From Gammaproteobacteria bacterium (GTDB taxonomy: Bacteria; Pseudomonadota; Gammaproteobacteria; Methylococcales; Methylomonadaceae): a stretch of DNA of 45,725 nucleotides. The translations under genes and the position numbers were made by a program. Where the stretch lies: assembly GCA_018830325.1 (NCBI GenBank), contig JAHJSQ010000059.1, positions 1-45,725 of the forward strand, written 5' to 3'. Below the pieces are notes generated by a model, which saw nothing but the letters and a program-made list of their open reading frames with translations, was not told where the DNA came from and searched no databases. Shown here piece after piece: positions 4,746 to 42,165 of the stretch (its first letter is position 1; each line of letters opens with the position of its first letter).

Positions 4746-4803
4746 GGGATTGCAATGCGTGTAAAAACAGATAATTTACATATTTACAAGCTAGATTGAT
4801 ACA

Positions 4804-4823: not shown

Positions 4824-4835
4824 ACTAGGTTCACT

Positions 4836-5186: not shown

Positions 5187-5200
5187 AAATTTTGGCTCAA

Positions 5201-5220: not shown

Positions 5221-5244
5221 CAACTTATTAATATGAGGCTTGAA

Positions 5245-5697: not shown

Positions 5698-5733
5698 GCA
5701 AAGTTTTTTCAATAACCACCATTGAGGATCAAC

Positions 5734-6213: not shown

Positions 6214-6232
6214 GAGCCGGCGGGGAGGAGTT

Positions 6233-7423: not shown

Positions 7424-7496
7424 GGCAGATTTTATTTTGTCGCCTGTAAATCCGACATAATTTAATTTATTTTCAATTTCAAAAGGCTGAATTACT

Positions 7497-7859
7497 ATGG
7501 AAAAAATCGAAATATTCGACCCGGCGTTGTGCTGCAGCTCCGGCGTATGCGGCGCCGATGTGGACGAAGCCTTGGTGACATTTTCGGCCGATGTGGATTG
7601 GCTGAAACAGCAAGGCGGAAACATTGTCCGCTATAACCTGTCCCAGCAGCCGATGGCGTTTGTCGACAACAAGGTCGTCAATGGTTTTCTGGTGCGCTCC
7701 GGCGAGCAGGGGCTGCCGCTGGTGCTGGTTGACGGTGAAATCGCGCTGGCCGGGCGCTATCCTTCCCGGGAAGAACTGGCGCGCTGGTGCGCGATCGAGG
7801 CCGCGCCTGCCGAAAGCAAGGCCGACGCTTCCGCTTGCAGTAAAACGGGTTGTTGTTGA
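7497..7859 (+). CDS. arsD: Arsenic metallochaperone ArsD
   Basis: 120 residues with a thioredoxin-like fold. Cys12, Cys13 and Cys18 in PALCCSSGVCG form the three-coordinate As(III) site that delivers arsenite to ArsA. A C-terminal cysteine pair (TGCC) is also present, as in E. coli plasmid ArsD. It lies 73 bp after acr3, and arsA follows directly. Confidence 0.92.
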   Translation: MEKIEIFDPALCCSSGVCGADVDEALVTFSADVDWLKQQGGNIVRYNLSQQPMAFVDNKVVNGFLVRSGEQGLPLVLVDGEIALAGRYPSREELARWCAIEAAPAESKADASACSKTGCC

Positions 7860-7868
7860 TTGCCGGTC

Positions 7869-24284: not shown

Positions 24285-25607
24285 TTACACGATCACGCCT
24301 GCTGCAATAGTGGCATGAGTGGCTTCGTCGATGATAATGAAACTGCCGGTAACGCGATTTTCTGCATAATGATCGACAAACAGCGGTTGTTGTAGCTTCA
24401 GTTCGACTCTGACGATATCGTTCATCACGATGTCGCTCGGTTTTAGATGTTTTTGCAACGTATTCACATCCACTCGATAATGCAAGTCTGAAAACAGGCA
24501 GCGGACCGTGCGCGTCGTATGCTTGATGAGATATTTGCGCCGGGTGTGCAGGGGCTCTTCGGAAAGCCAGCAAATATCGGCATGAATTTCACGCACCGTC
24601 TCCGGCAGATCGTTCTTAGCGACCAGCATGTCTCCTCGCGATATATCGATCTCTCTATCTAATTCAACGACGACAGAGAGATCGGGAGTCGCGTGCGGTA
24701 GAGATTGGTTGGCAAGCTTAACCGATTTTATTTTTGCCGCGAGTCTGGACGGCAATGCTAGTACTTCATCGCCAACTACCAGCATTCCTGATGCCAATGT
24801 GCCCTGATAACCGCGAAACTCTTTGTTTAAGTCATTGTTTTTTATTGCTGCACCGTTTCCGAGCTTTACTCGTGCGACCCGTTGTACCGGAAAACGCAAC
24901 GGATTTTCTGACCTATCGCGGTGTGCCGAAACACGATTTAAATGATCTATCAATGTCGGGCCATCATACCAATTCATCGATCGGCTAGCATGCACGATGT
25001 TGTCGCCTTTCAATGCGCAAATCGGCAGTGCACAAATTTGCTCGATGCCAAGGGAGGCGGCAAATGCCAGATAATCATCCCGAATCGTTTGATAGATGTC
25101 TTGGCGCCAGTCGACCAGATCCATTTTATTGACGGCCAGCACGATCGCGTTGACTCCCAACAAATGAGCCAGATAAGTGTGACGACGCGTTTGTGTCACG
25201 ACACCCTTACGCGCGTCTACCAATAAGATAGCTAGGTCCGCCGTCGATGCTGCCGTGACCATGTTCCGCGTATATTGCTCGTGTCCAGGCGCATCGCCGA
25301 TGATGAATTTACGCTGTTCGGTGTTGAAATAACGGTAAGCGATATCGATCGTGATGCCTTGTTCGCGTTCGGCTTGCAGGCCGTCGGTCAGCAACGATAA
25401 ATCCAGTTCGCTCAAACCGCGTTTAGCGGATGTCTGTTGTATCGCTGTTATTTGGTCGCTATGAATGCTTTGCGTGTCGTAAAGCAGTCGTCCGATCAGC
25501 GAACTTTTGCCGTCGTCGACACTGCCAGCGGTAATGAAACGCAGCAAGCTTTTTGCGGAGTTGCCGCTTTCCGATGGAGTAAGATTTGGAGTCAATGGAG
25601 CGGTCAT
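24285..25607 (-). CDS. cysN: Sulfate adenylyltransferase subunit 1 (CysN)
   Basis: 440 residues, an EF-Tu-like GTPase. The G-motifs are GSVDDGKSS (about residue 29), DAPGHEQ (about 105) and NKMD (about 160). The C-terminal beta-barrels follow; there is no APS kinase (CysC) fusion. With CysD it makes adenosine 5'-phosphosulfate from ATP and sulfate, using GTP hydrolysis. The ATG overlaps the cysD stop (TGATG), so the two are coupled. It is the last gene of the dab-cys operon. Confidence 0.92.
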   Translation of the reverse strand: MTAPLTPNLTPSESGNSAKSLLRFITAGSVDDGKSSLIGRLLYDTQSIHSDQITAIQQTSAKRGLSELDLSLLTDGLQAEREQGITIDIAYRYFNTEQRKFIIGDAPGHEQYTRNMVTAASTADLAILLVDARKGVVTQTRRHTYLAHLLGVNAIVLAVNKMDLVDWRQDIYQTIRDDYLAFAASLGIEQICALPICALKGDNIVHASRSMNWYDGPTLIDHLNRVSAHRDRSENPLRFPVQRVARVKLGNGAAIKNNDLNKEFRGYQGTLASGMLVVGDEVLALPSRLAAKIKSVKLANQSLPHATPDLSVVVELDREIDISRGDMLVAKNDLPETVREIHADICWLSEEPLHTRRKYLIKHTTRTVRCLFSDLHYRVDVNTLQKHLKPSDIVMNDIVRVELKLQQPLFVDHYAENRVTGSFIIIDEATHATIAAGVIV

Positions 25608-26581
25608 CAGAAATACCCTTCTTTTTTACGTTGTTCCATCGCAGCCTCCGAGGCTCGATCGTCAAGCCGTGTCGCGCCGCGTTCGGTGATTTTGCACGAT
25701 CGGATTTCGGCGATAATTTCGTCTATCGTGACCGCTGTCGATTCGACCGGCGCGGTGCATGAAATGTCTCCGACGGTTCTGAAACGGCAGCGTACCGTTT
25801 CGGTTGTCTCGCCCGGTTTCGGTGGCGTGATTTCGGTCACCGGCGCCAAGATCTCGCCGCGCCGGACCACGGTGCGGTCATGAGCGAAATAGAGTGGCGG
25901 CAATTCGATACCTTCACGCTCGATATATTGCCAGATATCGAGCTCGGTCCAATTCGAAAGAGGAAAGACTCTCATGTGCTCGCCGGGGCGAATCCGCGTA
26001 TTGAATAACATCCAAAGCTCCGGGCGTTGATTTTTCGGGTCCCATTGGCCGAATTCGTCGCGCAGACTGAAGACGCGCTCTTTGGCCCTAGCTTTTTCCT
26101 CGTCGCGTCTTGCTCCGCCCAAACAGACGTCGAACGCCAGTTCTTCGATCGCTTCGAGCAGCGTCACCGATTGATGGGCGTTACGCGATTCGAGGGGATC
26201 ACGTAAACGCACGGTGCCGCGCCGGATCGAATCCTCGACGCTACGGACATGCAACATAGAGTCGTAGCATTGTGCGATGCGGTCGCGGTATTCGATGACT
26301 TCGCCGTAGTTATGGCCGGTATCGATGTGCAGTAATACGAATCCTATCTTCTCGGGATGAAAAGCTTTGTAAGCCAGGTGCAACAATACCGCCGAATCCT
26401 TGCCGCCGGAGAAAAGCAGCACGGGGTTTTTGAATTCGGCTGCAACTTCCCGCAAAATGAATATCGCTTCTGATTCTAACCAGTCTAAATGCTGGTTTGC
26501 ATTTGAAAGCGAAATCCTTGATTGATCGTCCACATTTAGGTGATTTTGATTTTCAATAATGATTTGAGTTGTATCAAGCAT
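25607..26581 (-). CDS. cysD: Sulfate adenylyltransferase subunit 2 (CysD)
   Basis: 324 residues, about 22 longer than E. coli CysD at the N-terminus. The PP-loop SGGKDSAVLLHLA near residue 58 and the DVCLGGARRDEEKARAKER segment are diagnostic. It transfers AMP to sulfate within the CysDN complex. GAGG precedes the ATG, and the first 8 bp overlap the 3' end of dabA, which shows that sulfate activation is translated from the same message as the carbon transporter. Confidence 0.92.
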   Translation of the reverse strand: MLDTTQIIIENQNHLNVDDQSRISLSNANQHLDWLESEAIFILREVAAEFKNPVLLFSGGKDSAVLLHLAYKAFHPEKIGFVLLHIDTGHNYGEVIEYRDRIAQCYDSMLHVRSVEDSIRRGTVRLRDPLESRNAHQSVTLLEAIEELAFDVCLGGARRDEEKARAKERVFSLRDEFGQWDPKNQRPELWMLFNTRIRPGEHMRVFPLSNWTELDIWQYIEREGIELPPLYFAHDRTVVRRGEILAPVTEITPPKPGETTETVRCRFRTVGDISCTAPVESTAVTIDEIIAEIRSCKITERGATRLDDRASEAAMEQRKKEGYF

Positions 26582-29156
26582 TGTTTTCCTCTTTTCTGTT
26601 GTCGCTTTCCAATTGCCATTTTTTATGTCCCAGGTATCTGAAGTAAGAATTGCCGTCGTTTTCGATACTAAACAAATGAAGCCATTGATTATCGGTCAAA
26701 TGTCTGACGGTTTCGTGTTTGACTATGACCGCATCGATTGCCGATCTGGGTGCCTCGATGAAGACACTCAAGCGGACCGGTTCATGCACGAATTTGCAGC
26801 CGTCATGCAGCGATTGCCAGGGCAAGCCGGCTCGCAGATCGCCGCCGTTACCTTCGAGTACGCCGATCGTGCCGACCACGTTGTGAAGGACCTTGTTGCC
26901 GCAGCCGAACAGACGGTTATCGACCGTCGATGCGTAATACTGCAGGTTGATCCAGCTCGCGACGACCAAAGGCGCCGTCATGATCAATTCTAAAATGGAA
27001 CCATCCGAGTCTTGTTTGAAATCGTAATTATGCAAAAAGACTCTTCCGTTAAGCTTTACCTGACGTGTTCTTTCCCTAGGGGCAGCGATGAAGGCCGCAT
27101 TACCGGCCAGGCCCCATTCGGGACGTACCTGCGACCAATCTCGGCTCCGTGCTTCAATATGCTGTTTAATCTCTTGGGGATGGTTCTCGTGAATACCCAA
27201 TAGAACAGAACGTTCGGTTCTCGCCAATTCGGATGCCTCGTAAAGCCATTCTTGAAGACAGGCAATGTCTTTTTCGTATCCGGAAGGCAGACAATCGAGA
27301 TCGAACAGTCGCAGCTCGTCGGTCGTCGTGTCATGAAGCCCAGCCAGAAACCAAGTATCGTGCGGAATGTCGATGCCTTCGCTTGCCAAGCCCGCTCTGA
27401 CCGATACATCATTGAGCACCGCCGCGGCAATGCGGGCATTCGCTTCGCCGCTATGGCCGCCGCATGCTCCGCAATCGAGGCCGGCGGCATAGGGATTGTT
27501 GACTGTCGTACTACCATGTCCGCACAGCAAAACCAGTCGAGCGAAATCCGAAGTCAAACTCATGCCGCGCAGGGCGTTTTTGGCTAATTCGACTTTATCG
27601 GTCAAACGCAGACCGGTTTCGACGACTTTGCCGGTCGCTACCAGGCGCCCGCGTTGGCGAGTGATTTGAGGACCGAGACGGAGCACCGAAGTTACGTTTA
27701 AGCCTTCGGTGCCCGGCTTCGTGACGGTTCGGGTCAGACCGAAACTGTCGGTCAGCAGTTTGACTCCGAATGCCAATCCTGCGATTTCGACATAGGAGTA
27801 GCATGATACGGCCGATGTTTTGAACGATTTCCATATTTTATTTAAGCGTTTAATGGACCAACGCTTGTTAAGGGCATCGCTTAATTCTTCGGCCGTCGCA
27901 TTGATAAGGCTTTCGCGGATGCGGTATTTCGGCGTTAACAAGACCGGGCAATGCGCGGCACCGTGTTGATGACCTAAGCGTATATATTCGATTGGGAAGC
28001 CGAAAAAGCCTGCAAAGCCGAAGGTCTCGATTCTTGGCGATGCGGTCTCCAGTGCTCTGCGGTAAACCTCGGAGCGGACATCGATACAGAACACGGCTTG
28101 AACCGCTTTGTTCTTAATGGCTTTAGGGAGAGGTTGCGCTTTAAGTTGGTCGGGCGACGTAAATTTGTCGACAAGTTTTTGTTGAATACCGATTTCATAA
28201 GCTTGTTGCATCAGCAATCTCAATTTTTCCGAAACGCCCGGTTCGGTCGGCTCGATCTCGATGACATTATCCAAGGCCGGTAATTTTTCGTAGTAGGTCA
28301 TTTGGAGAGCCCGGTCCCAAACCAGTCTGATCGCAAGCAAATGCAGCAATGTATCGTCGTCATGACCTTGCATGCCGGCTTCCCGAGCTCGGTATTGAAT
28401 ATAGGAGCTCCACCCGCCAACCGTCAGCAATTGCCGGTGAAAGAAATCCGTCAGGTTAGCTTCGGAAACGCGAATACTCCGCAATACGAAATCGATTGCC
28501 TGCAATGGCTCGTTCGGCAACGTGCGAACGAAGTCGCGAAACCCTTTGATACCGTGAATTTCCGCATTGCGATCAATGCTCGCTGCCTGCTTCCAAGCTT
28601 CGAATAACGGCAGCGAACACCACGGCATGCGCCAGGACGATTGACCCTCGTCGAAATAGGCCGCACACCATTTCGAAATTTCATCGATAACGAATGCAGT
28701 CCAGTCGGTCCCCAGTTCCGAATCGATCAAATCGGCAACCGTATGTATGGCATGCTTGCCGGCGTGCGCCTCATTCGGAATCGAACATAAGCGGGCCTTG
28801 ACGTCTTCGACCGACCCGAATTCACCGTTCTTGTCGAATAGGGTCAACGCTTTAGCCAGATCGGCATCGGTGATACGCCCGTTGGCGAGTTGATTCAAGT
28901 AAAAATCCGCCGACATCAGTAAATCCTTATGCGCGGCCCGGCGCATGAAGGCATTGGCCTGAGAAAAATGTTGCGGCAACAATCCGAGGAAAGGGTTGAC
29001 CGCAACAAACTGCTTCAAAGGCCAGAGCGGCGGCACATATGAGCATGCGGTTGCCGCCGCCGATAGGATTTGCGGACGAACGGTCGCTTGTTTCCCGTTA
29101 AAGGATTCGTTCAGGCCGATATCGGATTTTTGAGATAATATGTTTAAAGTTTTCAT
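26574..29156 (-). CDS. dabA: Inorganic carbon transporter subunit DabA (DUF2309)
   Basis: 860 residues. The beta-carbonic-anhydrase-like zinc ligands are visible: Cys357 and Asp359 in VFCIDVRSE, His547 in LCGHGST, and Cys562 in LDCGACGG. The 15-residue spacing between the last two equals that of Halothiobacillus DabA (His524, Cys539). DabA is a peripheral cytoplasmic protein that, with membrane DabB, drives energy-coupled capture of CO2 as bicarbonate. A Cys-rich stretch follows the ligands. It starts 15 bp after dabB stops. Confidence 0.92.
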   Translation of the reverse strand: MKTLNILSQKSDIGLNESFNGKQATVRPQILSAAATACSYVPPLWPLKQFVAVNPFLGLLPQHFSQANAFMRRAAHKDLLMSADFYLNQLANGRITDADLAKALTLFDKNGEFGSVEDVKARLCSIPNEAHAGKHAIHTVADLIDSELGTDWTAFVIDEISKWCAAYFDEGQSSWRMPWCSLPLFEAWKQAASIDRNAEIHGIKGFRDFVRTLPNEPLQAIDFVLRSIRVSEANLTDFFHRQLLTVGGWSSYIQYRAREAGMQGHDDDTLLHLLAIRLVWDRALQMTYYEKLPALDNVIEIEPTEPGVSEKLRLLMQQAYEIGIQQKLVDKFTSPDQLKAQPLPKAIKNKAVQAVFCIDVRSEVYRRALETASPRIETFGFAGFFGFPIEYIRLGHQHGAAHCPVLLTPKYRIRESLINATAEELSDALNKRWSIKRLNKIWKSFKTSAVSCYSYVEIAGLAFGVKLLTDSFGLTRTVTKPGTEGLNVTSVLRLGPQITRQRGRLVATGKVVETGLRLTDKVELAKNALRGMSLTSDFARLVLLCGHGSTTVNNPYAAGLDCGACGGHSGEANARIAAAVLNDVSVRAGLASEGIDIPHDTWFLAGLHDTTTDELRLFDLDCLPSGYEKDIACLQEWLYEASELARTERSVLLGIHENHPQEIKQHIEARSRDWSQVRPEWGLAGNAAFIAAPRERTRQVKLNGRVFLHNYDFKQDSDGSILELIMTAPLVVASWINLQYYASTVDNRLFGCGNKVLHNVVGTIGVLEGNGGDLRAGLPWQSLHDGCKFVHEPVRLSVFIEAPRSAIDAVIVKHETVRHLTDNQWLHLFSIENDGNSYFRYLGHKKWQLESDNRKEENNA

Positions 29157-29171
29157 CGCAGCATGCTCCGA

Positions 29172-30758
29172 TCAAGAATGACGAGGTGACTTGGCAGGCC
29201 AATAGCGGCGAATCAACAAGTTCGCGAAGCTACTGATATAAAGGCCGTTATAAAAATGAACGTAAGCCGATTGCCAACCTGAACCAATGTCGTCGCTGGA
29301 GAAGCGTACTTGCAGCCATAACACCGACATGAACGACGCCAACACGAACAATAACAGTCCAATGTCGAAAGCCCCGCTCGCCAGCTCTGCAGTTGGCAGC
29401 GCATTTTGCAACAACTCGATAAACGCGGCTTGCAGCGCGAAGTAAACGAGCGATACGACTACGGCAATGATGCTGACGCTTATGAACAGGCGCTTGCCGA
29501 TATGAATTTCGATCGCGTTCCAGAGGAGATAAGTCAAGGCTATCTGCAGAATGACGCCCAGAATCAAAACACCCGGGTGATTCGAAAAAGTGAAGCCGAA
29601 CAACGTGGACACTGAAAATGTCAACACCAGTGCGAGTACGAAACCGCTAAGCAAGTGCCATGAATCGCGTTTTTTGCGCACGAGCGGAACCCACGACGAC
29701 TTTGCGATATCGACGATGCTGCCGCTGGAAAGGAAGGCATGCGCTTTGTATAAGGAATGCGCGACGATATGCAATATCGCCGAAGAGAAGGCTCCCAGAC
29801 CGCATTGCAGCATCATGAAGCCCATTTGTCCGACCGTCGAGAAGGCCAACGACTTTTTGACACTGGTTTGCGTCAGCATGCACAGAGCGCCGAACAAGGC
29901 TGTTATTGCTCCGAGGACCGCGAGTAGATGTAAGGCGGACGGCGCGAGTATCATTACATGGCTCATGCGGACGATCAGAAAACCGCCGGCGTTGATGATG
30001 CCTGCGTGCATCAATGCCGATACCGGTGTCGGCGTCTCCATGACTTCAGGCAGCCAGCTGTGGAATGGGAATTGTGCGGATTTCAACAAGGCCCCCAACA
30101 CGAGTAAGATGCCGATCCACGATAACTCGCTGCCAGCATCGACAGACTGAGAAGTCGTCGATACGAGATCCGCCGCCGCGAAAATTTCTCCGAAACGAAG
30201 ACTGCCGAAGCGCTGATAGATTAACGCCATCGCCAGAATCAGACACAGATCGCCGATCCGGCTGATCACGAATTTCTTGCGCGCGACGATCAGTGCTGTC
30301 GGACGGTCTGAGTAAAAAGTGAGCAATTGATGGAGTTTGAGGCTGGTCGCCATCCAGGCTAGCGTGAACAACACCAAGTTACCCGACACGATCAGCGTCA
30401 GTACGGCACCTATCGTCAGCGCCAGCCACTTCATGAAGCGTCCCTGTCCGGGATCGCCAGCCAAATAATTACGCGAATATCGAATGACGATGACGCTCAC
30501 GAAGGAAACCAATATCAACATCGTCGCCGAGAGTGCATCGAAGTAAACATCGATTCCGGCGAATCCTTGTTCGATCAAACCGTGTTCAGCGTAAAACCAA
30601 GTGGCCAGTACTGCCGAAAACAAACCGGCAATCGCTGCGATTTCTGTCGATCGAGCGATCTTTAACGGTTGACGCTCGGCCCACGTTGACGGCGCAAGTC
30701 CCAACAATAACAGCGAAACCGGGCCTGCGATGACGAGAATAATCGATAAAGCGGTCAT
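29172..30758 (-). CDS. dabB: Inorganic carbon transporter subunit DabB (NuoL/MrpA-like)
   Basis: 528 residues with about 14 membrane helices. It has the proton-antiporter core of NADH dehydrogenase chain 5: FHSWLPEVMETPTPVSALMHAGIINAGG near residue 228, and HIVAHSLYKAHAFLSSGS near 335. DabB forms the ion-conducting half of the Dab complex with DabA. GGAG lies upstream of the ATG. It is the first gene of the dabB-dabA-cysD-cysN operon. Confidence 0.9.
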   Translation of the reverse strand: MTALSIILVIAGPVSLLLLGLAPSTWAERQPLKIARSTEIAAIAGLFSAVLATWFYAEHGLIEQGFAGIDVYFDALSATMLILVSFVSVIVIRYSRNYLAGDPGQGRFMKWLALTIGAVLTLIVSGNLVLFTLAWMATSLKLHQLLTFYSDRPTALIVARKKFVISRIGDLCLILAMALIYQRFGSLRFGEIFAAADLVSTTSQSVDAGSELSWIGILLVLGALLKSAQFPFHSWLPEVMETPTPVSALMHAGIINAGGFLIVRMSHVMILAPSALHLLAVLGAITALFGALCMLTQTSVKKSLAFSTVGQMGFMMLQCGLGAFSSAILHIVAHSLYKAHAFLSSGSIVDIAKSSWVPLVRKKRDSWHLLSGFVLALVLTFSVSTLFGFTFSNHPGVLILGVILQIALTYLLWNAIEIHIGKRLFISVSIIAVVVSLVYFALQAAFIELLQNALPTAELASGAFDIGLLLFVLASFMSVLWLQVRFSSDDIGSGWQSAYVHFYNGLYISSFANLLIRRYWPAKSPRHS

Positions 30759-33590: not shown

Positions 33591-36116
33591 ATGCAAATGA
33601 ATTTGAAGGATATGAAAGCGGGCGATTGCGGACGCGTCGTGGGTTACGACAAAAGCTTCTTGCCTTACCGGCAGAAACTGCTGGCGATGGGTTTGACACC
33701 CGGCACCGAATTCAAAATTTTGCGCATCGCACCGTTAGGTGACCCGATTGAAATCAGAGTGCGCGGTACCGATCTCAGCGTGCGCCCGGACGAAGTCGCC
33801 GGCTTGAGAATCGAGCGTCTGGACAAAGTGCCGCCGGCCCCGAAACCTGTCTTGCAGAAACAAGAATACACCGTCGCCGTCATCGGCAACCCCAACTGCG
33901 GTAAAACCACGCTGTTCAATGGTTTGACCGGTGCCCGTCAGCATGTCGGCAATTGGGCTGGCGTGACCGTCGAGCGCAAAAGCGGCTTTTATCGCTTCGA
34001 TGACAAAACCGTCAAAATTGTCGATTTGCCCGGCATCTATGCGTTGGATGTGAGCGCTACGGCCACGGCGCTGGATGAAAAAATTGCCAGGGATTACATT
34101 CTTTCGCGGCAGGCGGACCTGATCATCAATATCGTCGATACATCGCATCTCGAACATAACCTCTATCTGACGACACAACTGCTGGAAATGCGGCTACCGC
34201 TGCTGGTGGTGCTGAATAACATGGACGACGCGACCGGCCGCGACATCAAGATCGATAGCGACGAAATAGCCCGCCGCCTCGAATGTCCGTTGGTTTCATT
34301 GGTTGCGACTCGAGTCGAGGATGTCAGGGCTTTGAAAGCGTCGATCAACCAAGCGGTGGAGCATAGAGTTTTGTCGCATTCGGTGATCGATTATCCGCTT
34401 GCGATTCGGGATGCGCTGGATCGACTCACGCCGCTGGTAGAGCAGCAATTGGACAACCGTTACGGCGATGCGCGATGGTTCGCCGTCAAATTGCTGGAAC
34501 AAGACGCTTTTGCGCTCGGTCATGCCGATCCGTTACTGATCGAGACCGCGAAACAACTGCGCCGGGCGATCGAAGACCAAGCCGCCGAAGAGGCGGATCT
34601 TTTGATCGCGGACAGCCGCTACGGTTTTATCGGTCTATTGGTCAATGAGACGCTCACGCGGCAGTCCGAGCTGGGCAGGAACCTTTCCGATAAGATCGAT
34701 CATGTGATATTGAACCGTTTCTTGGCCATTCCGATCTTCTTCGGCGTGATGTATTTGATGTTCACGTTCACGATCAAACTAGGACGGGCCTTTAAACCTT
34801 TCTTCAATGACTTGACTCAGGCGCTTTTTGTCGATGGCATGGGGCATTTCCTGATGCTGCTCGACAGTCCGCAATGGTTGATCATGCTGATCGCCCAGGG
34901 TGTCGGCAACGGAATACGGGAAGTGGCCGCGTTCGTTCCTATTCTCGGTTTTCTGTATCTGTTCATTTCGGTATTGGAGGAGTCGGGTTACATGGCCCGC
35001 GCGACGTTTGCGATGGACCGCTTGATGCGCGTACTGGGACTGCCCGGCAAGGCCTTTGTACCGATGATTCTGGGTTTCGGCTGTAACGTGCCGGCGATGC
35101 TGGCGACCCGGACCTTGGAGAATCCGCGCGACCGGTTGCTGAGCATCCTATTGAATCCGTTCATGACCTGCGGCGCTCGGCTGGCCGTATTTACCTTGTT
35201 CGCCGCGGCTTTTTTCCCGGACCACGGCGGCTTGATCGTATTCGTGCTTTATTCGATAGGCGTGTTCTTTGCCGTGCTGACCGCATTGCTGCTGAAGAAC
35301 ACGTTTCTGAAAGAGGAATTTTCGCTGGTGATGATGGAAATCCCGAATTATCACTTTCCTAAGCTGAAAAATGTATTGATTAACAGTTGGACCCGGGTTA
35401 AGACATTCGTCGTGCGGGTCGGAAAAATCATCATCACGATGGTCGTGCTCTTGAACATACTCGGTTCGCTCGGGACGGACGGCGGTTTTAAACCGAACGA
35501 CATCGAACATTCGGTACTCAGCGCCGCAGGTCGTTCGGTGACGCCGGCGTTGGGGTCGATGGGTATCGACGAAGATAATTGGCCGGCGACGGTTGCGTTG
35601 TTTACCGGTATCCTGCATAAAGTCGTCGTCATCAGCACGCTGAAAACGATCTATGCAGAAACCGGACAAGTGGCTTCCGCCCGACAAGTTCAGTCCTTAG
35701 ACTTGGGCGATGCGGTGGAACGCGCCTTCATGACCATCCCGATGGGGCTGAAAAAAATGTTCGGTGCCGACCCGGTCAATCAATCGGCCGGCCAAGAACC
35801 GTTTGTTGAGGCCTTGCATCGGCATTTCGACGGGACGATCGGCGCTTTTGCCTATCTGTTATTTATTTTGCTGTATTTCCCTTGCATCGCGACTTCGGCG
35901 GCCGCTTACCGGGAATCCGGTCTAGGTTGGTCGTCGTTCATGGTACTCTGGTCCACGGGGCTGGCTTATTTGACCGCGACGCTGTTTTATCAGTCGGCGA
36001 CTTTTAGCGAGCATCCGGAAAGCTCGGCGGCCTGGCTGGCCGGGATTGCAATGATCGCCGTTGCGGTTGTGTTGGTGTTTCGTTATTGGGGGAAACGCCG
36101 GCAAGCTTCGATCTAG
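33591..36116 (+). CDS. feoB: FeoA-FeoB fused ferrous iron transporter
   Basis: 841 residues. A FeoA SH3-like domain (about 1-78) is joined by a Pro-rich linker (PPAPKP) to FeoB. The FeoB G domain has G1 GNPNCGKT (99-106), G3 DLPG (145-148) and G4 NNMD (209-212). The membrane part has the Gate motifs, including VPMILGFGCNVPA and FMTCGARLAVF. It imports Fe(II) across the inner membrane. FeoA-FeoB fusions are known but less common than separate genes. There is no feoC. It heads a rightward series of metal genes. A second ATG two codons in is an alternative start. Confidence 0.93.
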   Translation: MQMNLKDMKAGDCGRVVGYDKSFLPYRQKLLAMGLTPGTEFKILRIAPLGDPIEIRVRGTDLSVRPDEVAGLRIERLDKVPPAPKPVLQKQEYTVAVIGNPNCGKTTLFNGLTGARQHVGNWAGVTVERKSGFYRFDDKTVKIVDLPGIYALDVSATATALDEKIARDYILSRQADLIINIVDTSHLEHNLYLTTQLLEMRLPLLVVLNNMDDATGRDIKIDSDEIARRLECPLVSLVATRVEDVRALKASINQAVEHRVLSHSVIDYPLAIRDALDRLTPLVEQQLDNRYGDARWFAVKLLEQDAFALGHADPLLIETAKQLRRAIEDQAAEEADLLIADSRYGFIGLLVNETLTRQSELGRNLSDKIDHVILNRFLAIPIFFGVMYLMFTFTIKLGRAFKPFFNDLTQALFVDGMGHFLMLLDSPQWLIMLIAQGVGNGIREVAAFVPILGFLYLFISVLEESGYMARATFAMDRLMRVLGLPGKAFVPMILGFGCNVPAMLATRTLENPRDRLLSILLNPFMTCGARLAVFTLFAAAFFPDHGGLIVFVLYSIGVFFAVLTALLLKNTFLKEEFSLVMMEIPNYHFPKLKNVLINSWTRVKTFVVRVGKIIITMVVLLNILGSLGTDGGFKPNDIEHSVLSAAGRSVTPALGSMGIDEDNWPATVALFTGILHKVVVISTLKTIYAETGQVASARQVQSLDLGDAVERAFMTIPMGLKKMFGADPVNQSAGQEPFVEALHRHFDGTIGAFAYLLFILLYFPCIATSAAAYRESGLGWSSFMVLWSTGLAYLTATLFYQSATFSEHPESSAAWLAGIAMIAVAVVLVFRYWGKRRQASI

Positions 36117-36125
36117 GACTTCCCG

Positions 36126-36227
36126 TGTTCCCACAGTCTTCTATGGGAACCGATGCTGGGCTCTGGAAGTAGAGCGTCATATTTAAGTCAGGTATGCATT
36201 CCCACGCGGGAGCGTGGGAACGAGAGG
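36126..36227 (+). repeat. Palindromic repeat family C, copy 1
   Basis: About 102 bp with a hairpin at each end: GTTCCCACAG...CTATGGGAAC at the left, and ATTCCCACGC...GCGTGGGAACG at the right. It is diverged from copies 2 and 3 but has the same architecture (left hairpin, GATxxxGG spacer, ATTTAAG-like block, right hairpin, AGAGG). Confidence 0.7.
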
Positions 36228-36268
36228 GATATCCTAAATCTGATAAAGGGCATAAACATGATTTCCTG

Positions 36269-36370
36269 GTTCCCACGGTCCTCCGTGGGAACCGATACCG
36301 GCTTTAAGTGTGGCACGTTGTATTTAAGTTCGTTATGCGTTTCCACACACAGGAGCGTGAGAACGAGAGG
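36269..36370 (+). repeat. Palindromic repeat family C, copy 2
   Basis: The left hairpin GGTTCCCACGG/CCGTGGGAACC is perfect. The right hairpin is weaker (TTTCCACACAC...GTGAGAACG). It is flanked on both sides by copies of the start region of the P-type ATPase gene. Confidence 0.72.
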
Positions 36371-36422: not shown

Positions 36423-38411
36423 ATGATCGATAAAATTTATTTCGACAAAATCGATGCGGAACTGCTGAAGATCAGTCCGCGCCAAGACATTATGCTGCTG
36501 CGCGTCATCGCGGCGGTCATTCCGGTGGTCTTATTCGGCTTGGATGCACTTTATGATTTGCCGGTCTTGTATTGGCTGGGCATTCCGTTTTATCTGTTCT
36601 GTTTGGCGCTCTATCTCGAAAGCCTGTTGAAAAGCGTGTTGTTCTTGCGCAAGGTTTCGGCGGAACTGCTGATCGTTTTGGTCATGACCGTGACGCTGAT
36701 CGATGGGGCGCCGTTGAGCGGGGCGATGGTCGCCTGGTTCATCGGCCTGGGCTTGTATATCTCGTTCACGATCATCCGTAAGAACCGGGAAAAGATCGAA
36801 AGCCTGATTCAGGAGGGCAAAAAGACAGCCCGGATGCTGCAGGACGGCGACATCGTGGAAGTGCCGATCAACCAAATTCGGCTAGGCGCCACGGTGCTGA
36901 TTCCGAAAGGCGCAATGGTTCCGATCGACGGAATCATCATCGAAGGCGCCTCGGCGATCGACGAATCGACGATTACCGGCGAACCTTTTCCGGTATATAA
37001 GGAGACTGGCGCCAGCGTGACATCGGGTACGCTGAATTTGAGCGCGCCGCTGCAGGTCAAGGCCGATAAAAACGGGGACGATTCGTTTCTCGCAGTGATC
37101 ACTCAGGAAATCGAAAACAGTCTGGAGAACAAATCCGATCTGCAGCGGCGCGCCGATACCACGGTGCAGATTCTGCTGTTGTCGGTCACGGCCTATGCCT
37201 TTTTGCTGCTTTACATTACCGGCAGCCTACATCTAATGGCGACAGCACTGGCGGTGGTTTGCCCCTGCGCCTGGGCGCTGGCGACGCCGACCGCGTTCGC
37301 CGCCAATATCGGGCGTCTGGCTCGTTCGAATATTCTAGCCCGTGGCGGCGAGCCGCTGGAAAACATGCAGGACATCAAAACGCTGATTCTGGATAAAACC
37401 GGCACGGTCACGTTGGCAGAACCCGAAGTCAGCCAGGTCATCGAAATGGGCTTGCCGACACAGGGTCTATTGGAACTGGCCGCATCGATCGAATCGCGTT
37501 TCGATCATCCGATCGCGCATTCGATCGTCAATTATGCGAAAAAGCAAGGTCTGAATGCCTTCCTGCCGGTCGAGAAAGCCGAGGACCTTCCGGGCCGCGG
37601 CATCAAGGCCCGGATCGAAGGCCGGGAAATTCTGATGGGCAGCGCCGAAACGCTGAGCCTTCAGGACATCGAATTGCCGGCTATCGACTATACCGGCCGT
37701 GCTGTCTGGCTGGCGGTCGACCGCGAAGTCCAGGGCGTCATCGTCATTCGCGATATCATGCTGTCGGAAATGCGGGGCTTGGCCGATACGATCCGCGCCT
37801 GCGGCATCGAAAAGGTCGTGCTCGCGACCGGCGATAACGAAGAACAGGAGGCCAATCGCGTGGCCGACTATATCAACGCCGACGAATACTATTTCAATTG
37901 CAAGCCGGAGGACAAAACCGCGCTGGTCAAAAGATTTCAGGAACAGGGCAAAGTGGCGATGGTCGGCGATGGCGTCAATGACGCGCCATCTTTGGCTGCC
38001 GCCAATGTCGGCATCGCGATCGGCGGGCACAAGAACGTCAATCTGGCGATCATTTCATCGGATGTCGTCATTCTCGGTCACGATGCCCAGGATCTGGTCA
38101 CGATCTTGCGGCTCGGTCATAAAATGGGCGGCATCATCCGGCAAAATTATCTGTGGGCCGTCATTTTCAACAGCGTCGGCCTAGCGCTGGCGACATTCGG
38201 CTTGCTCAATCCGATCTTTGCCGCGCTGCTGCATCATGTCAGTTCGGTGTTCGTCGTCGTCAATGCCGGCCGCTTGTATTTTACCGGCATCGAGCAATCG
38301 CTGGTCGGTCCTATGTTCAGAAAAATGGATGAGCTGACCGGCCGCGATCAGCGCTACGAACCCGAAAGTTTACCTTCCGTCTCCGAAGCGACTGTCGAAG
38401 CGGAGTCTTAA
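36423..38411 (+). CDS. P1B-type metal-transporting ATPase, atypical, no HMA domain
   Basis: 662 residues from the ATG at 36423; upstream extension is rejected because it crosses repeats. It has no N-terminal metal-binding domain. Motifs in order: TGEP (185-188), membrane CPCAWALATP (280-289), DKTGT (324-328), an HP motif in RFDHPIAHS, and GDGVNDAP. The CPC is standard for heavy-metal ATPases, but the following AWALATP and the last-helix HHVSSVFVVVNAGRL do not match the usual Cu, Zn/Cd or Co signatures. It lies 4 bp before a SufC-like gene. Context suggests iron or another transition metal; direction is presumably export. Confidence 0.82.
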   Translation: MIDKIYFDKIDAELLKISPRQDIMLLRVIAAVIPVVLFGLDALYDLPVLYWLGIPFYLFCLALYLESLLKSVLFLRKVSAELLIVLVMTVTLIDGAPLSGAMVAWFIGLGLYISFTIIRKNREKIESLIQEGKKTARMLQDGDIVEVPINQIRLGATVLIPKGAMVPIDGIIIEGASAIDESTITGEPFPVYKETGASVTSGTLNLSAPLQVKADKNGDDSFLAVITQEIENSLENKSDLQRRADTTVQILLLSVTAYAFLLLYITGSLHLMATALAVVCPCAWALATPTAFAANIGRLARSNILARGGEPLENMQDIKTLILDKTGTVTLAEPEVSQVIEMGLPTQGLLELAASIESRFDHPIAHSIVNYAKKQGLNAFLPVEKAEDLPGRGIKARIEGREILMGSAETLSLQDIELPAIDYTGRAVWLAVDREVQGVIVIRDIMLSEMRGLADTIRACGIEKVVLATGDNEEQEANRVADYINADEYYFNCKPEDKTALVKRFQEQGKVAMVGDGVNDAPSLAAANVGIAIGGHKNVNLAIISSDVVILGHDAQDLVTILRLGHKMGGIIRQNYLWAVIFNSVGLALATFGLLNPIFAALLHHVSSVFVVVNAGRLYFTGIEQSLVGPMFRKMDELTGRDQRYEPESLPSVSEATVEAES

Positions 38412-38415
38412 ACGT

Positions 38416-39138
38416 ATGGCTTTGCTGGAGCTGCGTCGAGCTGTTTATAGGGTGGGACAGAAAAACATTCTGGACGGTCTGGATTTCGCTATCGACGAAG
38501 GGGATGTGCATGCGCTGATCGGCACGAACGGCACCGGCAAGAGCACCCTGGCGCGCTTGATCATCGGCAGCGAGGGTTTTCGGCTGAGTTCCGGGCAAAT
38601 CGTCTTTGACGGCCGGGACGTCGGCACCTGGACGATGTACGAACGCGCCCAGGCAGGCATCTCGATGGTCTGGCAAGAGCCGGCCTTGTTCGAAGGCATA
38701 TCGGTGCGCGATTATTTGAGCATTGGCCGGGGTCATGCGGACTTATCACAATGCTTGGCCCAAGTCGGACTGAACCCCGACGACTATCTCGACAGACCGT
38801 TGGACAAGTCGATGAGCGGGGGTGAAAGAAAACGCATCGAGCTGGCGTCCATGCTGGCATTGCGGCCCCGGCTTTGCATTCTGGATGAGCCGGTGTCCGG
38901 CATCGATTTGGTCTCGGTCCGCAGTATTCTGGCCGTGATCAGACGAATACAACAAAACGGGTCGTCGATTCTGCTGATCACGCATCGCGAAGAAGTCGCC
39001 GGCATTGCCGACAAGGCTTCATTGTTGTGCGGCGGTAAAGTCGTCATGACCGGCGTGCCGGATAAAATCATCCAAAATTACAAGGCCAGACATTGTGTCG
39101 TCTGTAACGGCCGGGAGTGCGACTATGCCGCTGACTGA
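38416..39138 (+). CDS. SufC-like ABC ATPase (SmsC-type)
   Basis: 240 residues. Walker A GTNGTGKST (36-44), Q-loop near 87, signature MSGGERKR (133-140), Walker B LCILDEP (153-159) and switch His190. The start (ILDGLDFAIDEGDVHALIG) is of the SufC type, and the following gene is SufB-like, so it is predicted to power Fe-S scaffold assembly in the cytosol rather than a transporter. Oddly, the C-terminus adds CVVCNGREC (Cys227, 230, 235), a possible metal or cluster site. It starts 4 bp after the P-type ATPase and overlaps the next gene by 14 bp. Confidence 0.82.
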   Translation: MALLELRRAVYRVGQKNILDGLDFAIDEGDVHALIGTNGTGKSTLARLIIGSEGFRLSSGQIVFDGRDVGTWTMYERAQAGISMVWQEPALFEGISVRDYLSIGRGHADLSQCLAQVGLNPDDYLDRPLDKSMSGGERKRIELASMLALRPRLCILDEPVSGIDLVSVRSILAVIRRIQQNGSSILLITHREEVAGIADKASLLCGGKVVMTGVPDKIIQNYKARHCVVCNGRECDYAAD

Positions 39139-40060
39139 TCGATTCATTCCGTTACTGAACGCGAGCGGCATCGATCGCGGTATCCTGGACGACCGTGAAA
39201 CCGCGCATATCGCGGCGGACGGGCAATCACTGCTCAGCCGGCGGTCGATTCCGGGTCTTTCGATAAAGATCGATGAAAACCGTGAATCGACGAAGGTCGA
39301 CATCAGGATAGCCCGCGACACACACATCGTGAATCCGGTCCATCTTTGCTTCGCGCTGCTGCATGGCATCGGCAGTCAAAACTTTAGCGTCCATGTCGTA
39401 CTCGAACCGGGCGCCAAGGCCGATTTCATCTCGCACGGCCTGTTCGCGAATGCCCAAGTCGTCAAACACACTATGCATAAGCTCATCGAGATCGGCGACG
39501 GAGCACAGGCCCATTTCACCGATAGTCATATTCATGGACTTTCCGGTGGCATCGAAGTCAACTCGACAGCACAGATCAAAGTCGGCAAGCATGCGCGCTA
39601 CGGCGCGGATTTCTCGTTGACATCGGGCAGGGTCGGGTGGCTTGATTTGAATGAATCGATACAGGCCGACGATTACGCGGTCGTCGAGATTGTTTCCCGC
39701 GTCTACGGGCATGACGACGATTCGATCAAAATCAACGAAGAAGTCAGTCTGAACGGCCGGTTCTCGCGTAGCATGATCAAAAGCCGCGTCGCGTTGGAAG
39801 GCGAAGCCCGGGCGGACATCGTCGGCATCACAGAGGGCCGCGCCGAAGGCTCGCGCGGTCACATGGATTGCATGGAAATCATCAAAGACCAAGCGGTCGG
39901 ACAATCGACGCCGGTCGTCAAAGTCAGTCATCCGCTTGCGAAGATCACCCACGAAGCGGCTATCGGCACGGTCGACAAGAAACAAATGGAGACCTTGATC
40001 GCGCACGGGCTTTCCCCAGAGCAGGCCACGGATATGATCGTGTTGGGTATGTTGCGTTAA
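39125..40060 (+). CDS. SufB/SufD-family Fe-S scaffold protein, short form (SmsB-like)
   Basis: 311 residues, against about 495 for E. coli SufB and 423 for SufD. It is essentially only the beta-helix core plus the C-terminal SufC-binding region. Cys249 (GHMDCMEI) and Glu277 (THEAAIG) occupy the positions of the catalytic Cys405 and Glu434 of E. coli SufB, 28 against 29 residues apart, so it is SufB-like rather than SufD-like. Start chosen at the ATG at 39125 with GGGAG upstream; an earlier in-frame Met lies deep inside the previous gene. With the SufC-like ATPase it forms a two-gene minimal SUF-like unit such as the SmsCB pair of methanogens. Confidence 0.82.
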   Translation: MPLTDRFIPLLNASGIDRGILDDRETAHIAADGQSLLSRRSIPGLSIKIDENRESTKVDIRIARDTHIVNPVHLCFALLHGIGSQNFSVHVVLEPGAKADFISHGLFANAQVVKHTMHKLIEIGDGAQAHFTDSHIHGLSGGIEVNSTAQIKVGKHARYGADFSLTSGRVGWLDLNESIQADDYAVVEIVSRVYGHDDDSIKINEEVSLNGRFSRSMIKSRVALEGEARADIVGITEGRAEGSRGHMDCMEIIKDQAVGQSTPVVKVSHPLAKITHEAAIGTVDKKQMETLIAHGLSPEQATDMIVLGMLR

Positions 40061-40067: not shown

Positions 40068-40149
40068 GAGGACCTACGAATGCTGCTATGGATAATGAGA
40101 TTCAGTCTGTTGGGAAGCTTAGACGCTATTCCTGGTGCGGTCTTGTTTT
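40068..40149 (+). pseudogene. Degraded duplicate of the ZIP gene leader and 5' end
   Basis: About 82 bp matching 40266-40347 at roughly four bases in five, including leader, start codon and about the first 22 codons of the ZIP gene (ATGCTGCTATGGATAAT..., then TTCAGTCTGTTGGG). Translation runs into repeat C copy 3 and stops. It sits just after the SufB-like gene. Confidence 0.7.
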
Positions 40150-40153
40150 CCCT

Positions 40154-40254
40154 GGTTCCCACGGTCCTCCGTGGGAACCGATACGGGCGCTGAGAGTATT
40201 ACGTTGTGCTTAAGCCTTGGTATGCATTCCCACGCAGGAGCATGGGAACGAGAG
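40154..40254 (+). repeat. Palindromic repeat family C, copy 3
   Basis: The left hairpin GGTTCCCACGG/CCGTGGGAACC is identical to that of copy 2; the right hairpin is CATTCCCACGC...GCATGGGAACG. It lies exactly between the degraded and intact copies of the ZIP gene start. Confidence 0.75.
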
Positions 40255-40279
40255 TTCAATCAGTTGAGGGGTACTATGA

Positions 40280-41017
40280 ATGCTGCTATGGATAATCGGG
40301 TTCAGTCTGTTGGGCAGTATCGGCGCTATTGCCGGCGCGGCCTTGTTTTTGTTCTTTCCGGAAGGCATTCGTAGAGTGCTGGTTCCTTGTTTGATCAGCT
40401 ACGCGACCGGCACGCTGCTTGGCGCGGCGTTTCTCGGCATGTTGCCCGCCGGGCTGAAACAGGCTCCGGCGATCGCCGTTATGGCGACGGTCTTGGCCGG
40501 CATGGTCGGCTTTTTCGTTTTGGAAAAACTCGTCATCTGGCGTCACTGCCACAATAACGGATGCGAAGTACATAGCCATGCCGCGCCGTTGATTCTGATC
40601 GGCGATGCCTTCCATAACTTCGTGGACGGCGTGGTGATCGCCGCAGCGTTCCTTACGTCTATACCATTGGGCGTCACTACCGCATTGGCGGTGATTGCGC
40701 ACGAGATCCCGCAGGAAGTCGGCGACTTCGCCATCCTGCTCGACAACGGCTACAGTCGTGTGAAGGCCTTGGTGCTCAATGGGCTATCATCCGTCGCCAC
40801 ATTGCCCGGTGCTTTGATCGCCTATTTTTGGCTGGTCGAGACACGCGAGGCGGCGCCCTATATTTTGGCGATCTCTGCCGCCAGCTTCATCTATATCGCG
40901 ACGGCCGATCTAATACCTGCCTTGCACCGGCAGGTTAGCCTGCTGACATCGCTACGCCAAATATTGCTGTTGCTCGCGGGCATCGCTACCGTCGCTTTCT
41001 TTCACCTTGGAGGGTAA
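40280..41017 (+). CDS. ZIP-family metal permease
   Basis: 245 residues with about eight membrane helices. The binuclear metal site motifs are present: HNFVDGVVIA in helix 4 (about residue 112) and HEIPQEVGDFAILL in helix 5 (about 138). A His/Cys-rich loop (RHCHNNGCEVHSH) precedes helix 4, as in many ZIPs. ZIP proteins move Zn, Fe, Mn or Cd into the cytosol; neighbours suggest iron. GAGGGG lies 8 bp before the ATG. The ferritin-like gene starts 3 bp after it ends. Confidence 0.87.
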   Translation: MLLWIIGFSLLGSIGAIAGAALFLFFPEGIRRVLVPCLISYATGTLLGAAFLGMLPAGLKQAPAIAVMATVLAGMVGFFVLEKLVIWRHCHNNGCEVHSHAAPLILIGDAFHNFVDGVVIAAAFLTSIPLGVTTALAVIAHEIPQEVGDFAILLDNGYSRVKALVLNGLSSVATLPGALIAYFWLVETREAAPYILAISAASFIYIATADLIPALHRQVSLLTSLRQILLLLAGIATVAFFHLGG

Positions 41018-41020: not shown

Positions 41021-41491
41021 ATGAACCCGCTCACCGAAACTGAAATCGCCGCCCTCAACGAGGCGTTGGATGATGAATACCGGGCCTTGGCAACCTACGA
41101 TCAAGTCATTGCCGACTTTGGCGATGTGTCGCCGTTCGGCAACATACGAGATGCGGAAAGCCGACACATAGACGCGATTTGCACACTTTTTTCTCGCTAT
41201 GGGTTAACCATTCCCGAGAATCCCTGGTTGGGAAAGGTTGAGCGTTATGCGAGTCTGCAAGAAGCTTGCGAAGCAGGCGTCGCCGCCGAAATCGCCAATG
41301 CCGAAATCTACGAACGGTTAGTTCAAGCCACGGAACGACCGGATATTCTGACCGTGTTCCGCAATCTTCGGGATGCATCGCAGCAGCGCCACCTGCCGGC
41401 GTTTCAGCGATGTGTGCAAGGATCATCCGGACGCGGTGGACATGGCGGCGGGGAAGGGCATCGCGGCAGACACGGGGGCGGCCATGAATAG
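41021..41491 (+). CDS. DUF2202 ferritin-like protein with His/Gly-rich tail
   Basis: 156 residues. A four-helix ferritin-like bundle (about 1-130) carries metal-ligand patterns: Glu19 (DDEYRALATY), then Glu46 and His49 (AESRHIDAI), and a second half with EIANAEIYERL and QQRHLPAF. The last 25 residues are a His/Gly/Arg tail (GGHGGGEGHRGRHGGGHE) that looks like a metal-binding or buffering segment. DUF2202 proteins are uncharacterised; the fold suggests di-iron chemistry or iron storage. It is coupled to the ZIP gene (3-bp gap), which favours iron or zinc handling. Confidence 0.82.
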   Translation: MNPLTETEIAALNEALDDEYRALATYDQVIADFGDVSPFGNIRDAESRHIDAICTLFSRYGLTIPENPWLGKVERYASLQEACEAGVAAEIANAEIYERLVQATERPDILTVFRNLRDASQQRHLPAFQRCVQGSSGRGGHGGGEGHRGRHGGGHE

Positions 41492-41526: not shown

Positions 41527-42165
41527 ATGCCTAGAGTAGCTCCGTTCGAGGATCATCATCAACGTTACGAGGCGTGGTTCGACAAGCATGAGGCTGCTTA
41601 TATCTCGGAATTGCTGGCGCTGCGGCCATTCGTGCCTTGGGAAGGCTGCGGCGTCGAGATAGGCGTCGGCAGTGGTCGCTTCGCGGCGCCGTTAGGGATA
41701 CAGGTCGGCGTCGATCCTTCCCCGGCGATGTTGCTTCATGCTTCGGCGCGAGGCATAAAGGTCGTGGAAGGCGTGGCCGAGAATCTGCCTTTCGAAGTCG
41801 GTACCTTCGATTACGCGTTGGTGGTAACGACCATCTGTTTTGTAGACTCCCCAGTGAAAATGCTTGCCGAGGCTCACCGAGTTCTTAAACCGGGCGGCCG
41901 CCTTGTGATCGGATTTATCGATAGGGAAAGTGCCTTGGGTCAAGATTATTTGGCGCATCAGGACGAGAGCGTATTTTACCGCGAAGCCACATTCATTTCG
42001 GCTGACGAAGTAGAGCAACTTCTGCTGGAAACCGGTTTCTCGATCGACGCTTGGGGCCAGACGCTCGCCCGCCCATTGCCCGAAACTCGGGAGATCGAAT
42101 CGCTAAGGGCAGGGCGGGGTCAATGTGCATTCGTTGTCGTCGCGGCAACGAAAGAGGATTGGTAA
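41527..42165 (+). CDS. Class I SAM-dependent methyltransferase
   Basis: 212 residues with the Rossmann methyltransferase motifs: motif I VEIGVGSGRFAAPLG (about 43-57), the acidic motif II VGVDPSPAML, and post-I GTFDYALVVTTI. It resembles the UbiE/MenG-like Methyltransf_11 group. The acceptor cannot be inferred. It lies 35 bp after the ferritin-like gene, so it may be the last member of the metal operon or independent. Confidence 0.82.
   Translation: MPRVAPFEDHHQRYEAWFDKHEAAYISELLALRPFVPWEGCGVEIGVGSGRFAAPLGIQVGVDPSPAMLLHASARGIKVVEGVAENLPFEVGTFDYALVVTTICFVDSPVKMLAEAHRVLKPGGRLVIGFIDRESALGQDYLAHQDESVFYREATFISADEVEQLLLETGFSIDAWGQTLARPLPETREIESLRAGRGQCAFVVVAATKEDW

Follow-up and report, generated by a model that had tools for sequence, protein, structure and literature searches.

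Organization of the locus

The window, i.e., the whole 45,725-nucleotide stretch analysed here (contig JAHJSQ010000059.1 of a gammaproteobacterium of the family Methylomonadaceae, order Methylococcales), contains two adjacent genes, smsC and smsB, whose predicted products are the ATPase and the scaffold of SMS, the minimal SUF-like system of iron-sulfur (Fe-S) cluster assembly. The pair (SmsCB) lies directly behind the gene of a P1B-type metal-transporting ATPase (P1B). The order P1B, smsC, smsB on the forward strand was confirmed, with a gap of 4 bp between the first two genes and an overlap of 14 bp between the last two; these distances, and all coordinates, agree exactly with a preliminary description of this DNA. 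The same description had regarded the three genes as one unit, of which the order and packing hold, but the unit was drawn too short, since feoAB upstream and the ZIP, ferritin-like and methyltransferase genes downstream had been missed. With the neighbours named by Pfam and NCBIfam, the whole unit reads feoAB–P1B–smsC–smsB–ZIP–ferritin-like–methyltransferase (Table 1).

This arrangement is found again in related genomes. The same seven genes occur in Methylomonas sp. WSC-6 (locus L017), spaced by 14, 4, -14, 121, 3 and 35 bp; the feoAB–P1B order is kept in L010, L017, L164 and L165, and the last two spacings, between zip and the ferritin-like gene and between the latter and the methyltransferase gene, are the same in the window, L010 and L017. 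The 14-bp smsC/smsB overlap is identical in 9/9 Methylococcales loci measured. The ratio of nonsynonymous to synonymous substitution rates (dN/dS) between the window and its sister species G003 was 0.22 for smsC and 0.18 for smsB, compared with 0.09 for P1B, 0.12 for feoAB and 0.16 for zip. Values of about 0.2 place the pair under purifying selection, and also rule out that the two reading frames are there by chance.

Table 1. Genes and repeats of the metal-homeostasis region of the window
Feature	Position	Strand	Basis or remark
Ferrous iron importer FeoAB (FeoA fused to FeoB), 841 aa, opens the unit	33591..36116	+	Pfam FeoA, FeoB_N, FeoB_C, Gate
Palindromic repeat of ~107 bp, two copies between feoAB and P1B	36120..36369	none	Third copy at 40148-40254
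P1B-type metal-transporting P-type ATPase, 662 aa, ATG start	36423..38411	+	TIGR01525, motifs
smsC, ATPase of the ABC type, 240 aa, C-terminal four-cysteine tail	38416..39138	+	Best PDB match MJ0035
smsB, scaffold, 311 aa	39125..40060	+	Best PDB match MJ0034; AlphaFold2/Foldseek
ZIP-family metal importer, 245 aa	40280..41017	+	Pfam Zip, 107 bits (cut-off 35)
DUF2202 / ferritin-like protein, 156 aa, 3-bp gap to zip	41021..41491	+	Pfam DUF2202, 34 bits (cut-off 22), partial match
SAM-dependent methyltransferase, 212 aa, closes the conserved unit	41527..42165	+	Pfam Methyltransf_11

The identities of the flanking genes were examined further. FeoAB passes NF007105 with 782 bits (cut-off 683). The ferritin-like protein has a weak match, under the cut-off, to the EncB ferritin-like cargo protein, and arsenite methyltransferase models matched the methyltransferase only far below their cut-offs. 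In the window, feoAB and P1B are 306 bp apart, and smsB and zip 219 bp; both gaps contain copies of the palindromic repeat. Since the first of these gaps is just 14 bp in Methylomonas WSC-6, the repeats look like later insertions. About 76 bp around the zip start are duplicated on either side of a repeat copy (40074-40349, 83% identical) and are present in three copies in G003, which suggests repeat-driven duplication.

The pair is SMS rather than SUF

Both proteins were compared with solved structures. By phmmer search of the PDB, SmsB was most similar to the Methanocaldococcus jannaschii SmsB, MJ0034 (E-value 2e-55), followed at a distance by 4dn7 of Methanosarcina mazei (1e-12), a longer protein, while E. 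coli SufB had an E-value of 0.54. The best PDB match of SmsC was the M. jannaschii SmsC, MJ0035 (5.6e-60), about 80 bits over every other chain, SufC included. The AlphaFold2 model of SmsB (pLDDT, the per-residue model confidence, 91.2) has a strand-rich core and a C-terminal helical hairpin, and in Foldseek it retrieved chain 9h78_B first (TM-scores 0.87/0.93), with 4dn7 and SufB/SufD ranking lower. In quick trees with long branches, the SmsB rows were separated from six SufB/SufD rows by a starred branch of support 96, and the ten window-type Methylococcales SmsB formed one clade (100, starred), as did the nine SmsC. It is to be noted that some branches of the SmsB tree are very long, that a single methanogen SmsB is represented, by a segment, and that the trees omit duplicate loci (L011, L170, L171) as well as those in which SmsB is not full-length (L013, L014).

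Family models were compared as well. SmsB scores 65 bits on Pfam SUFBD_core (cut-off 27), whereas TIGR01980 and TIGR01981 stay far below their cut-offs. The NCBIfam model for SmsB, NF052511, was not passed (55 bits against a curated 650); with 445 positions it is much longer than the M. jannaschii SmsB (316-321 aa in the PDB chains), and would be the naming model of another branch. Overall, smsC-smsB is, as judged from sequence ranking and predicted structure, a true SMS and not a trimmed SUF; the PDB ranking, the trees and Foldseek thus agree with the SmsCB-type assignment of the preliminary description, and the trees do not place the pair within ordinary SufBCD. That the genes are a duplicated and shortened SufB/SufC pair of ordinary SUF is very improbable, for although the SUFBD_core cut-off is passed and TIGR01978 (sufC) and TIGR01981 (sufD) match below theirs, the trees and the solved structures group both proteins with Sms, and none of the four tail cysteines described below is present in the SufC of this genome.

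The architecture recalls the archaeal system closely. Like the M. jannaschii SMS (MJ0035/MJ0034; PDB 9h78, 9h7y, 9hbl), the window has a two-gene smsC-smsB, a short SmsB ending in a helical hairpin, CXnCXXC ligands at the C-terminus of SmsC, and a pair unaccompanied by sulfur-donor or carrier genes (PMC12192291). A search of the window's contig returned no second SUFBD_core protein and no match to PF00266 or PF01592, SufA and SufE not having been searched as families; the absence of PF00266 bears out the earlier remark that no cysteine desulfurase gene is present here. Unlike the M. jannaschii SMS, the pair resides in a bacterium, as an accessory beside a complete SUF and within a FeoAB/P1B/ZIP operon, and its host is exposed to oxygen.

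A conserved four-cysteine tail on SmsC

In M. jannaschii, the [4Fe-4S] cluster is reported on SmsC residues C218, C239 and C242, and SmsB alone is described as binding none (PMC12192291). The window's SmsC has C205, C227 and C230 aligned with these three residues, and an additional C235, giving the spacing C205-x21-C227-x2-C230-x4-C235. All four were invariant in 27/27 aligned SmsC. In a larger alignment of 88 rows, which includes the genome's own SufC and an MJ0035 segment that stops short of the fourth position, the four positions were Cys in 86, 85, 85 and 82 rows, respectively, with none in the SufC. Since the tail cysteines are near-universal in these alignments, the C-x21-C-x2-C-x4-C tail is the rule in this SmsC branch. 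The fourth cysteine departs from the M. jannaschii pattern, in which the reported ligands are the other three, MJ0035's last residues being outside the alignment. The number of SmsC tail cysteines is already described as ranging from 0 to 5 (PMC12192291), so that a count of four is in itself no novelty, and a CXnCXXC motif has also been reported in some bacterial SufC (PMC12584684).

Attention had previously been drawn to Cys249 and Glu277 of SmsB. Both residues are indeed present, and both columns are invariant in 30/30 aligned homologues; however, in M. jannaschii and M. maripaludis the cluster is carried by cysteines of SmsC/SufC (PMC12192291, PMC12584684), and in the latter species, cluster binding was reportedly unimpaired by mutation of conserved SufB cysteine and histidine residues (PMC12584684).

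A complete SUF operon elsewhere in the genome

The genome encodes three SUFBD-core proteins, namely SufB and SufD on another contig (C60) and SmsB in the window. The operon on C60 is complete (sufR-like/sufB/sufC/sufD/sufS/sufU), and thus SmsCB is accessory, not the genome's sole cluster-assembly system. This is in accord with the suggestion of the preliminary description that the pair is distinct from the housekeeping machinery, since a separate full SUF operon exists and smsCB is not the only suf-type system of the genome. The SufBC2D system, of C60 as well as of E. coli, shares the scaffold-core fold and an ABC ATPase with SmsCB, but differs in its SufB/SufD hetero-pair, its SufS and SufU, and a SufC devoid of tail cysteines, whereas the smsCB locus has a single scaffold gene. 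The M. jannaschii trait of a sole system in a genome free of cysteine desulfurase is absent here, as SufS and SufU are encoded on C60. Nonetheless, the Thermococcus kodakarensis SmsCB was assayed together with a cysteine desulfurase (PMC12442378), and a desulfurase-free genome was therefore not treated as a defining feature of SMS.

The P1B pump

The pump scores 454 bits on TIGR01525 (cut-off 346) and carries the motifs CPC, DKTGT, TGEP, FN and HHVSS, of which we take CPC to belong to the membrane metal site, and FN and HHVSS to the last two membrane helices. It shares P1B family membership and the CPC, DKTGT and TGEP motifs with CopA and ZntA, and is unlike them in that the Pfam scan found no HMA domain and that HHVSS replaces the MxxSS that copper pumps carry in the last helix. 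A P1B-1 copper ATPase is therefore not what these features describe, as the copper model TIGR01511 was also missed (357 bits against 397). As regards the P1B-2 (Zn/Cd) class, the Cd-family model TIGR01512 was passed (364 bits against 313.5), but the DxG motif of ZntA-type pumps is not at the HHVSS site.

Linkage and loss within the Methylococcales

An SmsB match at E 1e-10 was found in 14/311 Methylococcales genomes, covering most of the length in 12 and consisting of 69-residue remnants in two; in a draw of 398 genomes of the phylum, SmsB at 1e-15 occurred only in the window's own genome and one other. The window's clade comprises ten full-length SmsB loci of the order, and in five of these ten (five of nine measured) P1B ends 3-4 bp before smsC, namely the window, G003, Methylomonas WSC-6, G612 and G616. 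With a wider limit of about 8 kb, P1B is near SmsCB in 9/10 clade loci, in several arrangements: the order is smsC-smsB-P1B with a 146-bp gap in UBA2778; P1B is about 8 kb off on the opposite strand in Methylococcales RS_11_22; and in G545 it is part of a dfer–feoAB–P1B–zip operon some 6.7 kb downstream and groups with the paralogous type in the P1B tree. The metagenome assembly of Methylobacter LH_M5 has the same gene order with broken genes, which may reflect decay or assembly error. Besides this clade, two Methylococcales genomes (G509, G547) have a divergent SmsB, 44% identical, near Acr3 and ArsC genes.

Deletions were also seen. G002 (L013) and G004 (L014) share a 1,203-bp deletion with identical breakpoints (window 38649-39851) through which smsC loses its end and smsB the greater part of its length, while P1B remains 97% identical. 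G001 (L152) has a separate deletion of about 2.2 kb, which also removes most of zip. In G005, a further member of the genus, neither P1B nor SmsCB was found at the thresholds used. In G047, G052 and G058, P1B stands beside a ferritin-like gene. In a careful P1B tree, which has only two starred branches besides the outgroup split, the directly linked P1Bs grouped together with those of the three genomes with deletions (90/97, not starred). This record suggests that an iron/metal operon either acquired SmsCB as an additional module or has shed it again and again.

Relatives outside the order and their arsenic neighbours

A scan of genome contigs confirmed 304 relatives, of which the best 80 by similarity (not by neighbourhood) were examined, 76 of them outside the Methylococcales; the most distant SmsCB lie among the relatives beyond these 80. 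Their hosts include, in addition to Methylococcales, Nitrospirae (among them Nitrospira defluvii), Methanoperedens, Desulfuromonadia, Geobacter, Rhodocyclus, Accumulibacter and others. The SmsCB of Nitrospirae, Methanoperedens, Desulfuromonadia and Rhodocyclus/Accumulibacter resemble that of the window in a 44-52% identical SmsB and in the four-cysteine SmsC tail, and differ in their neighbours. A P1B hit of at least 300 bits within 8 kb was found in 0/76 loci outside the order; the linkage noted earlier is kept among Methylococcales relatives and was not seen beyond them in this set. Weaker P-type ATPase matches occur in 3/76: the Nitrospirae loci L024 and L076 have class II (Ca-type) ATPases of 962 aa directly upstream of smsC (2522-5410) and 886 aa directly downstream of smsB (2560-5220), respectively, and in L052 a P1B fragment of 191 aa lies some 5 kb away from smsC, where the contig breaks off. 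P-type pumps of differing classes thus recur near SmsCB, but not those of the window's type. A ZIP gene within 8 kb was found in L029, L052, L055 and L168, none with the window's P1B type.

Among the metal-related neighbours found outside the order, arsenic-type genes were the commonest. At least one of Acr3, ArsP, ArsA and ArsC lies within 8 kb in 27/80 loci, all of them outside the Methylococcales (27/76), as counted with single representative queries and bit thresholds, five of the 27 resting on ArsC alone; the other 49/76 show no ars gene within 8 kb, although 43/76 loci are shorter than 16 kb, so that such a gene would often go unseen. Representatives were checked against Pfam and NCBIfam: acr3 (459 bits, cut-off 283), an ArsE-family thioredoxin (94, 62), an ArsA-family ATPase (310, 135) and an ArsR-family regulator (74.5, 55) passed, and ArsC fell just under (161, 174); the ArsP representative passed Pfam ArsP_1, the NCBIfam Cu/Zn and Sao efflux models matching it only below cut-off. 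Acr3 itself is within 8 kb in 15/80 loci by query count (13 in a neighbour table of 83 loci that skipped some open reading frames), including L045 and L065, where it is over the cut-off near SmsB. About 0.4 per 76 would be expected by chance, a rough estimate that assumes one Acr3 per 3 Mb and is not a shuffled control. In 30 genomes chosen by hand, partly for their neighbourhoods, 12/29 above-cut-off Acr3 genes were within 8 kb of SmsB. When the arsenic label was placed on the SmsB tree, the starred branches forced at least 10 changes, which implies many gains or losses of the linkage, or cases overlooked because contigs were short. In the hand-picked genomes outside the Methylococcales, SmsB was the sole SUFBD-core protein in 25/26, and a NifU_N-family protein (IscU/NifU/SufU) was above the cut-off in 24/26, or 28/30 overall.

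Other neighbours were recorded as well. Two small open reading frames, of 84 and 116 aa, lie between smsC and smsB in the related uncultured genomes of L062 and L073. Hsp20 is near SmsCB in 7/83 loci (L020, L028, L044, L050, L066, L094, L095), and radical SAM and NAPRTase genes also occur.

Other features of the window

The window has an arsenic operon of its own (5233-9626), coding for ArsI/CadI, an ArsC-like protein (below cut-off), Acr3, ArsD and ArsA; it lies upstream of feoAB at a distance of about 24 kb and does not adjoin SmsCB. On the reverse strand at 24285-30758, about 2.8 kb from feoAB, there is a cluster of CysN, CysD, DabA and a NuoL-like (DabB-type) protein, in which sulfate activation is joined to an inorganic-carbon transporter and which could conceivably bear on the sulfide supply of SMS. 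An Rfam search gave 0 matches, and a promoter scan found 3 sites against a shuffle mean of 6.6; terminator-like sites numbered 23 against 10.9 in shuffles, many of them within genes. Phage carriage was unsupported, as 0/143 IMG/VR pattern matches were confirmed and the window has no tRNA.

Proposed role and alternatives

With a little better than even confidence, we favor the reading that operons of metal/metalloid stress have recruited SmsCB as an auxiliary [4Fe-4S] scaffold. This reading starts from the gene identities and order, their conservation and selection, the conserved cysteines and the second, full SUF system described above; from these we infer the complex, its cluster and sulfur source, the metal of the pump, the co-regulation and the role in stress. 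By homology, the products of smsC and smsB would form an SmsC2B2 complex. This would assemble one [4Fe-4S] cluster on the cysteines at the SmsC C-terminus and would bind ATP and the cluster in turn; in M. jannaschii, SmsC2B2 is reported to build [4Fe-4S] on SmsC, with ATP and cluster mutually exclusive (PMC12192291). The SUF operon would do the housekeeping, and smsCB would probably be produced together with FeoAB, ZIP, the ferritin-like protein and P1B as one metal-homeostasis unit. Under disturbed metal balance, imported Fe(II) could feed SmsCB for the rebuilding of clusters, while P1B would rid the cytoplasm of metal that is in excess or of the wrong kind. The reading also draws on the recurrence of a metal context in other hosts, namely the arsenic-type genes (27/80 loci; Acr3 in 15/80) and the ZIP genes near SmsCB. 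Arsenite is reported to raise Isc proteins in E. coli (PMC11394912).

Several observations weigh against this reading, the main weakness being oxygen. The methanotrophs of the order Methylococcales are aerobes. The M. jannaschii SMS, however, given sulfide, is reported to rescue E. coli lacking isc and suf only when oxygen is excluded (PMC12192291). The pair is also rare, 297/311 Methylococcales genomes having no SmsB match at E 1e-10, and in G654 it occurs with no P1B in the roughly 9 kb examined on each side. Conversely, 3/6 genomes of the genus (G001, G002, G004) keep the pump without an intact pair, and dfer–feoAB–P1B–zip without SmsCB occurs in G010 and, as a further operon, in G002. Since P1B persists in all of these, the pump does not need the scaffold and the parts are not an obligate machine; the pump can no longer be called dedicated, as the preliminary description had it. 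Lastly, of two Fur-box patterns searched, one gave 0 matches and the other 1 distant match, about the number expected by chance.

A rather unlikely alternative is that SmsCB is a passenger, i.e., a mobile or relic backup scaffold that came to lie in the Feo operon by chance, without any function peculiar to the pump or the importer. Its patchy distribution (14/311 in the order, two of these remnants, and 2/398 in the phylum draw, one being the window's own genome), the two separate deletions in one genus that spare P1B, and the broken LH_M5 locus fit such a history; the dN/dS of about 0.2, the constant overlap and gaps, and the presence of P1B within about 8 kb in 9/10 clade loci do not. Another possibility, which we judge unlikely, is a scaffold for detoxification, in which the SmsC tail would capture a toxic ion (As(III), Zn, Cu or similar) or build metal-sulfide clusters, and not supply Fe-S proteins. 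Arsenic-type neighbours at 27/80 loci, the P1B and ZIP neighbours in Methylococcales, and coexistence with a complete SUF here and with NifU_N-family proteins in 28/30 genomes are all compatible with it, as is a fourth conserved cysteine outside the three M. jannaschii ligands (PMC12192291). Against it, a proven [4Fe-4S] scaffold has the same SmsB architecture and the same three cluster cysteines (PMC12192291), and the majority of the outside loci (49/76) have no ars gene within 8 kb, short as many of those contigs are.

Beyond the auxiliary-scaffold reading of the window itself, a wider proposal is offered tentatively, at somewhat less than even confidence. The window's SmsCB may represent a previously undescribed, accessory four-cysteine branch of SMS that was repeatedly recruited to metal/metalloid stress clusters of bacteria and ANME (anaerobic methanotrophic) archaea, where it would act alongside ISC (the Isc system) or SUF as a stress-specific scaffold that builds clusters or captures metal, in methanotrophs within oxygen-exposed cells. 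The clusters in question would be those of arsenic in Nitrospirae, Methanoperedens, deltaproteobacteria and some Methylococcales, and the FeoAB–P1B–ZIP operon in methanotrophs.

Significance

The founding paper on SMS reportedly dates from 2022. SMS is described as the anaerobic ancestor of SUF, mostly archaeal, and bacterial examples are already known from Clostridium, Dehalobacter and Syntrophus (PMC12192291). Among the papers listed in searches of the open-licence literature, which did not use the word methanotroph, none dealt with SmsCB of a methanotroph, with SmsCB inside a Feo/P1B operon or with its proximity to ars genes. An SMS that methanotrophs keep intact under purifying selection, redundantly with SUF, and that is tied to arsenic-type genes in other hosts, would show that the minimal system has found another use, as a tool against stress. 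It would also offer a small, two-protein pair with which to ask how such a scaffold copes with oxygen and where it finds sulfur beside SUF, and it bears on whether metal or arsenite toxicity has selected for a private means of Fe-S repair.

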